DNA from: Schumannella luteola
GTDB taxonomy: Bacteria > Actinomycetota > Actinomycetes > Actinomycetales > Microbacteriaceae
Direction of reading: 5' to 3'
DNA: 64,000 nucleotides
NCBI RefSeq assembly: GCF_013408685.1
Contig: NZ_JACBZY010000001.1
Coordinates: 3,410,001 to 3,474,000 of the forward strand
Positions within the stretch are counted from its first letter, which is position 1. Every line of letters begins with the position of its first letter. Shown here piece after piece: positions 52,861 to 56,188 of this stretch. The position numbers and the translations under genes are program-made. The notes beneath the pieces are model-generated. The model searched no databases, was not told where the DNA came from, and saw only the letters and a program-made list of their open reading frames with translations.

Positions 52861-54024
52861 ATGCCACGCAGCTGGGAAGAACTCCGCGAACTGCCCGTCG
52901 TCGACTGGACCCCGCAGCAGCAGCTGCGGCCCGCGGAGTCGGTCGTCGAGCGCGCCGCGGTGCCGGCCATCGACATCCACAACCACCTCGGCCGCTGGCT
53001 GACCGACGACCACGACTGGATGATCGACGACCCCGCCGCGCTGATCGAGGTCATGGATGCGGCGAACGTCGCGACCGTCGTCAACCTCGACGGGCTCTGG
53101 GGCGACGAGGTCACCGTCAACGTCGAGCGCTACGACCGCGCGCACCCCGGCCGCTTCCTCACGTTCTGCCAGCTCGACTGGGCGCGGCTGGAGGAGTCGG
53201 CGGGGCTCGAGTCGGGCCCCAGCTCCGGTGCGGGCGCGGCTGACGCCGCTGGTGCGCCACTCACCGCCGACTCGCCCGCGGTGCTCGCCGACCCGATCGT
53301 GCGCGAGCTGATCGCCTCGCTCGACGACAGCGCCGCCCGCGGCGCCCGCGGCGTGAAGGTCTGGAAGAACCTCGGCCTCACGTTCCGCGACGCGAGCGGC
53401 GCGCTCGTGCTGCCCGACGACCCCCGCGTGATCGCCGTGCTGCGGCACGCCGGCGAGCTCGGGCTGCCGGTGCTCATCCACACCGCCGACCCGAAGGCGT
53501 TCTTCGCCCCGCTCGACGAGAAGAACGAGCGCCTCGACGAGCTGCTCGTCATGAAGGAGTGGTGGTTCGGCGACACCGAGGTCTACCCGACCTTCGACCG
53601 GCTGCTCGCCGCGCACGCCGCGCTCGTCGCCGGCGCGCCCGGAACCCGCTTCATCGGAGCGCACTTCGGCTGCGCCGCCGAAGACCTCGACCTGGTCGAG
53701 CGGATGCTCGCCGCATCCCCCAACTACACGGTCGACATCGCCGGACGCATGGCCGAGCTCGGCCGCCAGCCGCGCCGCCTGCGCGCCCTGCTCGACCGCT
53801 TCCCCGACCGGGTGCACTTCGGCACCGACATCTACCCGGCGACGCTCGAGCAGTACCGCCTGCACTTCCGCTTCCTCGAGACGCTGGATGAGGCCTTCAC
53901 CTACGCGCCCGAGTCCGACATCCCGCCGCAGGGCCGCTGGACCGTCTCGGCGCTCGGCCTGCCGCCCGAGCTGCTCGCCCGCGTCTACCGCGACAACGCG
54001 GCCCGCGTGCTCGGCCTCGCCTAA
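52861..54024 (+). CDS. Amidohydrolase family 2 protein (metal-dependent TIM barrel)
   Basis: A 387-residue hydrolase or decarboxylase of the amidohydrolase-2 group. The metal motif IDIHNHLG (His40, His42) is near the N-terminus; LPVLIHTADP and FIGAHFGC supply further ligands, and VHFGTDIYPA the late Asp. Residues about 112-141 form a Ser/Gly/Ala-rich insertion. Divergent from importer 2, sharing operator B. Possible roles are lactone hydrolysis or hydrolysis of a sugar derivative; the sequence does not decide. Confidence 0.9.
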   Translation: MPRSWEELRELPVVDWTPQQQLRPAESVVERAAVPAIDIHNHLGRWLTDDHDWMIDDPAALIEVMDAANVATVVNLDGLWGDEVTVNVERYDRAHPGRFLTFCQLDWARLEESAGLESGPSSGAGAADAAGAPLTADSPAVLADPIVRELIASLDDSAARGARGVKVWKNLGLTFRDASGALVLPDDPRVIAVLRHAGELGLPVLIHTADPKAFFAPLDEKNERLDELLVMKEWWFGDTEVYPTFDRLLAAHAALVAGAPGTRFIGAHFGCAAEDLDLVERMLAASPNYTVDIAGRMAELGRQPRRLRALLDRFPDRVHFGTDIYPATLEQYRLHFRFLETLDEAFTYAPESDIPPQGRWTVSALGLPPELLARVYRDNAARVLGLA

Positions 54025-54053
54025 CTCGCCCCTCCTCCCCCTCCCGCCTGACG

Positions 54054-54115
54054 ATAGATCGGTCGCAAATCGTCGCCTGGCGCCGCACCTAGGCGACGAT
54101 TTGCGACCGATCGAT
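54054..54115. repeat. Long palindrome, distal copy, containing the nuclease stop codon
   Basis: Two 25-base arms (54054-54078 and 54091-54115) pair with one mismatch around a 12-base loop. The core of each arm is GGTCGCAAATCGTCGC. The right arm encodes the last eight residues (IDRSQIVA) and the stop of the nuclease-like gene. Almost the same element stands on the other side of the gene at 55092-55153. As RNA it can also act as a terminator for both convergent genes. Confidence 0.9.
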
Positions 54116-55024
54116 CTGTTCACGCACAGCGAGATGGCGGGCGATCGCGCGACGGATGCGGTTCAACAGCTCGATCGGTTCGTCGAAGTCACGTGCATTG
54201 ACCTCGAGGATGAGCCAGCCGTCGGCTCGCAGCCGCTCCATGCGTGTCTGGTCAGCCCGGTACTGCGCCGGGTCGGCGTGGTGAGCACCCTGGAACTCGA
54301 TGCCGACCAGAAGCTCCGGCATGGCGATATCCAGCCGATAGCGGTGTCCGCTGGAGACGGTCACCTCGTGGTTGGCCGCCAGCCCCGTGAGACCAGCGCC
54401 GGAGAGCAGCAGCCGCAGCTTCGTCTCGTACCGACTCTGCGACCGGGTGTCGAGCATCGCCAGCGCCGCGGCCATCATCGAGCGCCCACGACGCCCCTTC
54501 GAGCGCTCGACCTCCCGTTGCAGATCGGTCACGGTGCAGATCTTCAGATCCCATCTCACGAGGTGGTCGCCGGCGATCACCAGGTGCTCCAAGTCCACGG
54601 CCGCGGCGAGGTCGGTCCACGTGCGGGCCGGAGCCGCCACACGCAGTCCCGAGATCTCGCGCACCGGCGCGAGCCGGAGGTCGAAGCTGTGACCCGTGAT
54701 CCCCGCGCCGCGCGGGGCGCGTCCCGGTCTCGGGATCGCGACGTGGATCGTCGACGCCACCTCGTGGCGCCGAGGAAGAGGCGTGCCGTAGAGCAGCGCC
54801 GCTGTGGGTCCGCAGATGAAGCTGCCCGTCGCGACCCGCAGCAGAGCGGCCTGGCAACGTTCCCGCAGATCGAGGTCGCTCGTCGTGCTGCGGACGCCGT
54901 GGAAGGGTCGCGAGAGATCTGTGCGTCGCAGCCGCTCGATCGAGACGCCGTGGAGTTCGACCGCTTCGCGCACAGCGAAAAGTTGCGACCCGAGTGAATC
55001 GGGTAGACGTTCCGGGGCGGGCAT
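54089..55024 (-). CDS. AbiEi/DUF559-like protein with Vsr-type nuclease fold
   Basis: A 311-residue protein. The N-terminal third has a winged-helix-like start (DSLGSQLFAVREAVELHGVS, LRRTDLSRPFHGVR) and a middle domain of the AbiEi type. The C-terminal PD-(D/E)xK/Vsr-like part has E200 (YETKLRLLL), D232 (YRLDIAMPE), E243-x-Q245 (GIEFQGAHH) and DGWLILEVNARDF. Q replaces the usual K or D in the ExK position, so cleavage activity is uncertain. ATG 55024 is taken from the family start; GTG 55081 is possible. It sits between two palindromes and convergent sugar genes. No toxin partner is adjacent. Confidence 0.88.
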   Translation of the reverse strand: MPAPERLPDSLGSQLFAVREAVELHGVSIERLRRTDLSRPFHGVRSTTSDLDLRERCQAALLRVATGSFICGPTAALLYGTPLPRRHEVASTIHVAIPRPGRAPRGAGITGHSFDLRLAPVREISGLRVAAPARTWTDLAAAVDLEHLVIAGDHLVRWDLKICTVTDLQREVERSKGRRGRSMMAAALAMLDTRSQSRYETKLRLLLSGAGLTGLAANHEVTVSSGHRYRLDIAMPELLVGIEFQGAHHADPAQYRADQTRMERLRADGWLILEVNARDFDEPIELLNRIRRAIARHLAVREQIDRSQIVA

Positions 55025-55091
55025 GCCCGGCACGATCGCACTTCGCACCGCTCGCGCGCAGACGTTGTCCACACCCCGCACCCCGAGTGAA

Positions 55092-55153
55092 ATCGATCGG
55101 TCGCAAATCGTCGCGTGACGTGCGGTCTAGGCGACGATTTGCGACCGATCGAT
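55092..55153. repeat. Long palindrome, proximal copy, upstream of the nuclease-like gene
   Basis: Two perfect 23-base arms (55092-55114 and 55131-55153) surround a 16-base loop. Arm cores equal those of the distal copy. Read in the gene's direction, the first 27 bases of both copies are identical and 1038 bases apart, including a CCTAG that is the stop codon in the distal copy. Confidence 0.9.
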
Positions 55154-55183
55154 GGGAGGAACGGGCGTGTGCAGCAGGGCGGG

Positions 55184-56188
55184 CTACGGGAGGAGGGTGA
55201 GGATGCGGGCCACCTCGGCGGTCATCGCGGCGCGGGACGCGGCGAGGGGCTTGCGCGGGTCGACCGCGTCGGGGCGCTCGGCGAGGGCGGCGCGCAGCGC
55301 GGCGGTGCCGACGACGTTGAGCGCCGTGCCCACGTTGATCTTGCGGATGCCGGCGCGGGCGGCCGCCACGAGCAGGTCGTCCGGCACGCCCGAGGAGCCG
55401 TGCAGCACGAGCGGCACCGGCACGGCGGCGGCGAGCCGCTCGATCAGACCGAGGTCGAGCGCCGCGGTGCGGGAGGTCATCGCGTGCGAGCTGCCGACGG
55501 CGACGGCCAGCGCATCCACGCCCGTCGCGGCGACGAACGCCGCCGCCTCGGCCGGGTCGGTGCGCACGCCGGGCGCGTGAGCGCCGTCCTTGCCGCCGAC
55601 CTCGCCCAGCTCGGCCTCGACGAAGAGGCCGGTGGATGCGGCGGTCGCGCCAGATGCGGACGGCCGGCTCGGTGACGCGGTGGCCCCGCCATCGGGTGCG
55701 GCAGCAACGCCATCGGACGCGAACGCACGGCCGACGTCGACGGCGTCGCCGCCGGGCCCCGCGTCCGCGAACGGCACCGCACCCAGGTCGAGCGCGTGGC
55801 CGCGGGCGGCGAAGGCGGCCGTCTCGGCGACGTTGGCGGCGTAGTCGAGGCGGGCGGCATCCACCATGACCGACGACAGGCCGACGGATGCCGCGACGTC
55901 GAGCGACCGCGCGAGCAGCCCGGCGTCCTGCACGTGGTCGAGGTGCAGCGACACCGGGACGGGTGCCGCGGCGGCGAGGGCCCGCGCCGCGCTCAGCAGC
56001 GGCACCGGATCCCCGCCGTGGAACAGCGTCGCGTTCTCGCTCAGCTGCACGATCACCGCGCGATCGGCCTCGACCGCGCCGGCGACGATCGCCTCGACGT
56101 GCTCGAGGGTGATCGCGTTGATCGCGGCGACCGCTCCCCCGCGGGCGCCCGCGTCGGCGACGAGGTCACCCGTGCGGGCGAGCGTCAC
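55184..56188 (-). CDS. Class II (zinc) ketose-bisphosphate aldolase, GatY/KbaY-like
   Basis: A 334-residue aldolase that cleaves tagatose 1,6-bisphosphate or fructose 1,6-bisphosphate to two triose phosphates. The catalytic Asp and zinc His are in VSLHLDHVQD (D84, H85); FVEAELGEVGGKDG, AVGSSHAM and LVLHGSSGV give the other zinc and phosphate sites. Residues about 131-187 are an Ala/Gly/Ser-rich insertion not seen in standard members (about 285 residues). GTG 56188 overlaps the GH4 stop (GTGA), so the two are one operon. Confidence 0.9.
   Translation of the reverse strand: MTLARTGDLVADAGARGGAVAAINAITLEHVEAIVAGAVEADRAVIVQLSENATLFHGGDPVPLLSAARALAAAAPVPVSLHLDHVQDAGLLARSLDVAASVGLSSVMVDAARLDYAANVAETAAFAARGHALDLGAVPFADAGPGGDAVDVGRAFASDGVAAAPDGGATASPSRPSASGATAASTGLFVEAELGEVGGKDGAHAPGVRTDPAEAAAFVAATGVDALAVAVGSSHAMTSRTAALDLGLIERLAAAVPVPLVLHGSSGVPDDLLVAAARAGIRKINVGTALNVVGTAALRAALAERPDAVDPRKPLAASRAAMTAEVARILTLLP

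Follow-up and report, generated by a model that had tools for sequence, protein, structure and literature searches.

Palindromes framing a predicted AbiEi-like, Vsr-type nuclease gene in Schumannella luteola: a candidate REP/RAYT-like arrangement built on an unrelated enzyme

In a 64,000-nucleotide stretch of Schumannella luteola DNA (NZ_JACBZY010000001.1, positions 3,410,001 to 3,474,000; hereafter the window), a gene for a predicted nuclease lies between two long, near-identical palindromes. The two copies are 85% identical across 62 nt. As the initial annotation of this DNA had stated, they start 1038 nucleotides apart and have a longest direct string of 27 nt in common (CTAGGCGACGATTTGCGACCGATCGAT), and the copy at the 3' side supplies the last eight codons and the stop of the gene: the minus-strand reading of the copy at 54054 is IDRSQIVA-stop, the C-terminus of a 330-residue frame. 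A hairpin scan assigned the longest stems of the entire window to these two palindromes. A 16-nt core of the arms, with up to three mismatches allowed, matched the window seven times, and all four of the exact matches fell in the two palindromes. In 100 shuffles the mean count was 2.3 and the maximum 6, and the pair at the gene is therefore no product of chance.

We consider it probable, at roughly 60%, that the gene encodes a site-specific nuclease and that the palindromes are its private recognition sites, the two changing together. The arrangement would resemble that of repetitive extragenic palindromic (REP) sequences and REP-associated tyrosine transposases (RAYTs), built on an unrelated enzyme. 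As read from sequence, the gene is bracketed by palindromes of ~56-62 bp that are scattered genome-wide and specific to the gene lineage; at two conserved loci the gene and its palindromes differ between species far beyond their neighbors; and the arms of the window gene's palindrome family stay paired around a variable center of nearly fixed length.

Palindrome families and the genes that carry them

Palindromes with the exact outer arms of the window gene (family A) occur 12 times in the window genome (G000; 3.75 Mb, one contig), two at the gene and 10 elsewhere, the latter being referred to as solo sites. Among 19 genomes, nine further copies were found in Schumannella soli (G004), one in the congener G003 and none in the other 16. 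The gene that goes with family A was found in the window genome and in S. soli, and no family-A gene was found in G003. When the window genome was searched with the protein, two more relatives emerged, L032, which is intact, and L033, which is decayed; the palindromes around each belong to a different family. Family B counts 30 copies here, 31 in G003 and five in S. soli, the three genomes in which a B-locus gene with GTGGCCA-type flanks was identified. Family C has eight copies in G003, where its gene is intact, four here, where the gene is decayed, three in S. soli and none in G001 and G002. A further family, GAGGGGTC, has 16 copies in the congener G002, where it flanks the gene at the locus of the window gene, and is absent from the remaining four members of the genus. 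Genomes whose gene carries GAGGGGTC have 16, 12, 18 and 18 copies, and further such genomes 3, 4 and 1; the 12, 18 and 18 belong to Cryobacterium (G032-G034), with inner arms as in their own genes. The reversed control pattern gave no match for families A, C, GAGGGGTC and the GAGTGGCC-type, and for family B one match in each of two genomes of other genera. Taken together, the palindromes differ by gene lineage, and a gene's own palindrome is for the most part absent from genomes that lack the gene.

The decayed relative is a nuclease gene stub between two family-C palindromes (L033, 1275-1720; G000:C1 ~3526500-3526960). It occupies the same locus as the intact gene L079 of G003, the neighbors being 98% and 87% identical; in the window genome the gene is mostly gone and both palindromes are retained. 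One neighbor resembles a succinyl-CoA ligase subunit. Family-B palindromes are commonly clustered in twos or threes (for example G000:C1 885786-885987, 1065756-1065957 and 1135573-1135774), with a spacing of exactly 74 bp in 10 of 11 cases and 85 in one. One half of their loop is conserved (GACACGCCG), so they are oriented units.

Within a family the inner arms show 82-95% identity over those positions that the search pattern leaves free, compared with 38-56% over the 11-19 positions of the center (15 of the 16 G002 copies, one not being listed, 18 of G033 and 21 of family A). The length of family A is 55 or 56 bp in 21 of 22 copies, in a search that allowed 45-70. Pairing was retained through change in 139 of 147 cells in the same family, a value reached by none of 2,000 shuffles; the test used 21 of the 22 copies, the 53-bp copy being excluded.

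The bracketing of relatives was measured as the longest exact string common to the two 460-base flanks of a gene, with a threshold of at least 15 nt. The initial annotation had called for a search of the repeat and the protein across genomes, and related nucleases proved to be often flanked: 76 of 151 relatives in the pooled non-redundant set were bracketed, compared with six of 295 control open reading frames (ORFs); among Markov shuffles the share was 0.26%. Of the six positive controls, L073 and L095 at the least adjoin a target's own palindromes. The first set gave 24 of 41 genes, against two of 82 control ORFs; it comprises 41 of 43 loci, without L032 (wrong ORF picked) and L033 (no intact ORF). 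The scan of named genomes gave 35 of 76 usable loci out of 80, three lying at contig edges and one having no intact frame. The wider class gave 20 of 39 usable loci out of 50, the other 11 having no ORF that passed the motif filter; 20 of the loci had been hand-chosen from the profile list. A hairpin at the 3' side could be placed in 41 of the 76 bracketed genes (median length 59). It lies over the stop codon in 15 and starts within 30 bp after it in 17, so that the stop-codon overlap described at the window gene holds there and is not general. Hairpins on both sides were detected in 40 of 114 genes, and in 31 of these the gene's own two hairpins resembled each other more closely than did 99% of 1,560 pairs taken from different genes, the bounds of one gene in 119 (L110) being wrong.

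A domain search of 30 genomes, the window's included, revealed many more small nuclease genes. Five of the seven intact small-frame genes examined in the window genome (L031, L032, L066, L067, L068) have a flank string of 17-27 nt in common, and L064 and L065 have no such string. Of 148 genomes sampled from the class, 124 contained a match to the profile of the protein family, at most 15 candidates being scored per genome.

Conserved loci and solo sites

The gene stands at the amidohydrolase/aldolase locus in three species, namely the window genome, S. soli (L147 in the scan of named genomes) and G002. Between the window genome and S. soli the neighbors are 93.5, 96.4 and 98.2% identical (the aldolase 84.8%) and the nuclease 51%, both halves of the protein having diverged (49.7% and 54.8% identity). 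In G002 the nuclease is 42% identical, with a clearly different palindrome on each side. A second locus repeats the pattern, with 96.9% identity for the neighboring AzlC permease and 61.8% for the nuclease.

The solo sites were compared with S. soli at nine of the ten positions, C1:2432285 being left out. Seven were occupied at the same place, two of these also in G003. Three of the seven are degenerate in S. soli (L115, where the left flank alone was matchable, L128 and L009), and at L118 and L009 the inner arms differ, yet still largely pair. The positions of solo sites are conserved and their arms differ, which indicates that the positions are old and the letters young. At the other two (L020, L124) the palindrome is missing in S. 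soli, but 8 and 11 bp of its end are kept. We read these two as deletions because of the remnants; a pre-existing target resembling the end of the palindrome is a possible alternative. Near the position of the solo site L124, G002 has another palindrome (GTTTCTCCGCATC..., L243 1438-1485), as if the spot attracted palindromes of different families.

This comparison of empty with occupied sites yielded no clean empty site and no clean presence-absence polymorphism at the nine, which weakens any claim of recent mobility. The initial annotation had proposed a mobile or self-maintaining unit. A Vsr-type nuclease with its own palindrome, in a logic like that of REP/RAYT or homing systems, is what endures of that proposal; movement of the gene unit itself does not, given the same locus in three species and the lack of a clean empty site. 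Its suggestion that the proximal palindrome was left by an earlier copy of the gene likewise found no support.

Proposed mechanism and its alternatives

According to the predictions, the protein combines an AbiEi-type part that would bind DNA with a nuclease part of EDxHD/Vsr type. The predicted fold and PADLOC models point to an AbiEi-like antitoxin fold for the first part, and the second is predicted to have the EDxHD/Vsr-type fold with its conserved acidic and histidine residues: Glu219, Asp251, His268, Asp277 and Arg280 are invariant across 45 aligned proteins. The AbiEi/DUF559/Vsr assignment of the initial annotation holds, though the DUF559/MTES_1575 matches are weak and both Pfam hits of the window protein fall under Pfam's own cut-offs. 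The two 23-bp inverted repeats bound by AbiEi are separated by 3 bp, and the pairs bound by Rv2827c by 13 bp (PMC7319586); the EDxHD enzyme I-Bth0305I forms a dimer on a target almost 60 bp long (PMC3943268). Arms of 22-23 bp around a center of 12-16 bp fit the geometry of both, which suggests a dimer that holds the arms and cuts an unrecognized center.

In the mechanism that we propose, two protein molecules would bind the two arms, as AbiEi-type antitoxins do on their paired repeats, and the nuclease parts would be placed over the center in the manner of a dimeric homing nuclease. A nick or break in the center would be repaired from another copy of the palindrome, and this repair would overwrite copies already present and now and then give rise to new ones. 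Palindromes and protein would then turn over in step, with positions largely unchanged, and the gene, residing between two source copies, would be inherited vertically. Binding, cutting and spread are all putative here.

Several observations weigh against such a nuclease with private palindromes. Seventy-five of the 151 relatives have no 15-base string common to their flanks; this half may reflect decay, divergence or true absence, and some of its members still have clear hairpins. Likeness of palindromes and likeness of proteins are correlated (Mantel r 0.40, a value that none of 2,000 permutations reached; Spearman 0.11), a correlation seen in close relatives only and one that could come from shared descent alone. 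The pairing signal is weaker in two Cryobacterium families, where 35 and 235 of 2,000 shuffles were as high, and only five of nine family-B sites lie outside genes as placed by a rough caller. Some copies have no identified cognate gene: one of family A and a degenerate one in G003, and those of family C here and in S. soli. G041 has nine GAGGGGTC copies and an identified gene that bears other outer arms; in G192 and G193 the flanks of the gene have little in common with the solo copies; and pattern-B matches without the conserved loop occur in other genera (five in G025, one in G023). Copies of the GAGTGGCC-type, predicted throughout S. soli from the flanks of its B gene, bore the prediction out weakly, with three in that genome, two of them at the gene, versus one in the window genome. 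The lack of clean empty sites belongs here as well, and palindrome positions mostly common to sister species would fit old regulatory sites too.

Such regulation is the alternative that survives best, and we consider it unlikely. The AbiEi-like part would serve as a transcription factor with the 5' palindrome as its operator, and the solo copies would be regulon sites or would titrate the protein; the nuclease would act elsewhere, for instance on foreign DNA, and nothing would move. AbiEi and Rv2827c autoregulate through their paired repeats (PMC7319586), one palindrome copy does lie upstream of the gene, the solo positions are mostly conserved among sister species, and 14 of the 15 family-A solo sites considered in two genomes lie clear of called genes, as judged by a rough caller using third-position GC. 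However, the second copy sits regularly at the 3' end of the gene (32 of 41 over the stop or starting within 30 bp after it), where an operator would be unexpected. The presence of another palindrome at the same locus and genome-wide, together with the 74-bp family-B clusters, is more in keeping with a repeat that propagates than with a regulon.

That the whole gene homes or transposes strikes us as quite improbable. The palindromes would be its ends or its target, and solo copies would remain after loss of the gene, as solo long terminal repeats do. Copies of the gene are scarce and sit at conserved loci, whereas solo palindromes are numerous, and none of the nine compared solo sites carries the gene in S. 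soli. Few relatives turn up among phages or plasmids (one of 50,697 phage records, five of 72,556 plasmid records), a rarity on which a phage or plasmid origin was also rejected. Ordinary hairpins, that is, bidirectional terminators or mRNA-stabilizing stems that flank the gene by chance, can be set aside almost entirely: the palindromes are strong stem-loops, mostly intergenic in family A and often at or just past the stop codon, but terminator and promoter consensus scans of 53900-55400 returned nothing, with no terminator-like site bearing a T-run, terminators need no gene-private sequence, upstream match, fixed length or genome-specific family, and similar pairs are rare at unrelated genes (the six of 295 control ORFs, at least two beside a target's own palindromes).

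Known systems and further features of the locus

As in REP/RAYT systems, a chromosomal gene is flanked here by palindromes dispersed in its genome, and different palindromes accompany different genes (PMC3733652); orthologous RAYTs with differing REPs are tabulated in PMC3686654. The enzyme, in contrast, is an AbiEi-like protein with an EDxHD/Vsr-type nuclease and not an HUH/Y1 tyrosine transposase, and the unit is mostly 55-66 bp with a long variable center, where REPs have 20-40 bp and a GTAG-type foot. Families A, B, C and GAGGGGTC, read by eye, have no such foot; many families, not all, begin with (T/C)GAG. The Y1 domain (PF01797) was not found in nine of ten palindrome-bearing genomes, the one hit, in G001, having an inner stop, and a RAYT as hidden driver was rejected on this count. 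Because of the unrelated enzyme, the missing Y1 domain in nine of ten genomes and the missing foot, the system is not a member of the REP/RAYT group. Its logic has a precedent there, although the protein and the repeats look to have an origin other than that of REP/RAYT.

EDxHD homing endonucleases such as I-Bth0305I differ from the present case, in which the gene is free-standing, with no intron or intein seen, and has its own palindromes, scattered copies and an AbiEi-type DNA-binding part. Unlike the AbiE type IV toxin-antitoxin system and Rv2827c, the AbiEi-like part is fused to a nuclease, and repeats flank the gene at either end and recur at other places in the genome. No AbiEii nucleotidyltransferase toxin gene is adjacent, the neighbors being the Amidohydro_2 and aldolase genes; genes further away were not searched. 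The extra AbiEi-like part and the private flanking palindromes set the gene apart from the Vsr mismatch endonuclease, which nicks at T:G mismatches, and from DUF559 proteins (NGO0050, Caulobacter VsrA), and the parts seen of the literature on them mention no such repeats. No paper that links DUF559, Vsr or AbiEi-type proteins with palindromes, whether flanking or dispersed, came to light in a search that left subscription papers and bioRxiv preprints mostly uncovered, so a description elsewhere is possible.

A broader proposal, which we put forward tentatively and hold to be slightly more doubtful than probable, is that a large unrecognized class of palindrome-making systems exists in Actinomycetes with an origin independent of REP/RAYT. 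AbiEi-EDxHD dimers would bind the arms of private ~57-bp palindromes and cut the center, and through repair from other copies a genome-specific set of palindromes would be seeded, kept up and rewritten in co-evolution with a protein that changes fast. The literature, in the parts available, ties dispersed bacterial palindromes with their own enzyme to RAYT-type transposases; here an unrelated enzyme would stand in the same relation. Such a class would account for many scattered palindromes in high-GC genomes, would give a natural series of protein-site pairs for how the AbiEi-type part recognizes DNA, and would make the spread and rewriting of palindrome populations testable using a single enzyme.

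Features of the gene, its palindromes and its neighbors, in window positions
Feature	Position	Strand	Remarks
Gene, AbiEi-like part fused to EDxHD/Vsr-type nuclease part (predicted)	54089..55081	-	330 codons from GTG start
AbiEi-antitoxin-like part, predicted DNA-binding	54449..55018	-	residues ~22-211
Nuclease part (predicted)	54128..54439	-	residues ~215-318
3' palindrome	54054..54115		stop codon inside; perfect arms of 22 bp at 54057-54112
Center of 3' palindrome	54079..54090		12 bp; putative cut region; centers differ from copy to copy
Last eight codons and stop, within 3' palindrome	54089..54115	-	
5' palindrome, upstream of gene	55092..55153		perfect arms of 23 bp; putative binding, possibly autoregulatory, site
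Center of 5' palindrome	55115..55130		16 bp
Neighbor, Pfam Amidohydro_2	52861-54024	+	convergent with the aldolase gene
Neighbor, class-II fructose-bisphosphate aldolase (Pfam F_bP_aldolase)	55184-56188	-	

The convergent neighbors named in the initial annotation were recovered with these assignments. The true start may lie downstream of the GTG at 55081: Met20 is the first invariant column among four aligned members of the genus, and a start there, the likelier of the two, would lie at 55024. In alignment A3 the window protein is given without its first codon. A search of Rfam returned two weak matches only, well under the gathering scores. The aldolase neighbor has a mid-protein stretch rich in Ala, Ser and Gly (window 55631-55828) that is unmatched in the G002 aldolase.

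L066 and L077 represent a further family with CTCAAGGAGTTGCTGT arms and units of ~81-85 bp, present in two species of the genus. The nuclease branch that these palindromes flank is more distant, with 19-20% identity to the window protein. One other genus (G046, G091, G108, G124) has 6 to 15 profile matches per genome, again with at most 15 scored. Several of its matches among L300-L313 (G046, G091, G124) have their own flanking palindromes (L302, L307, L311), which makes this genus a good setting for studying the pairing of paralogues with palindromes.
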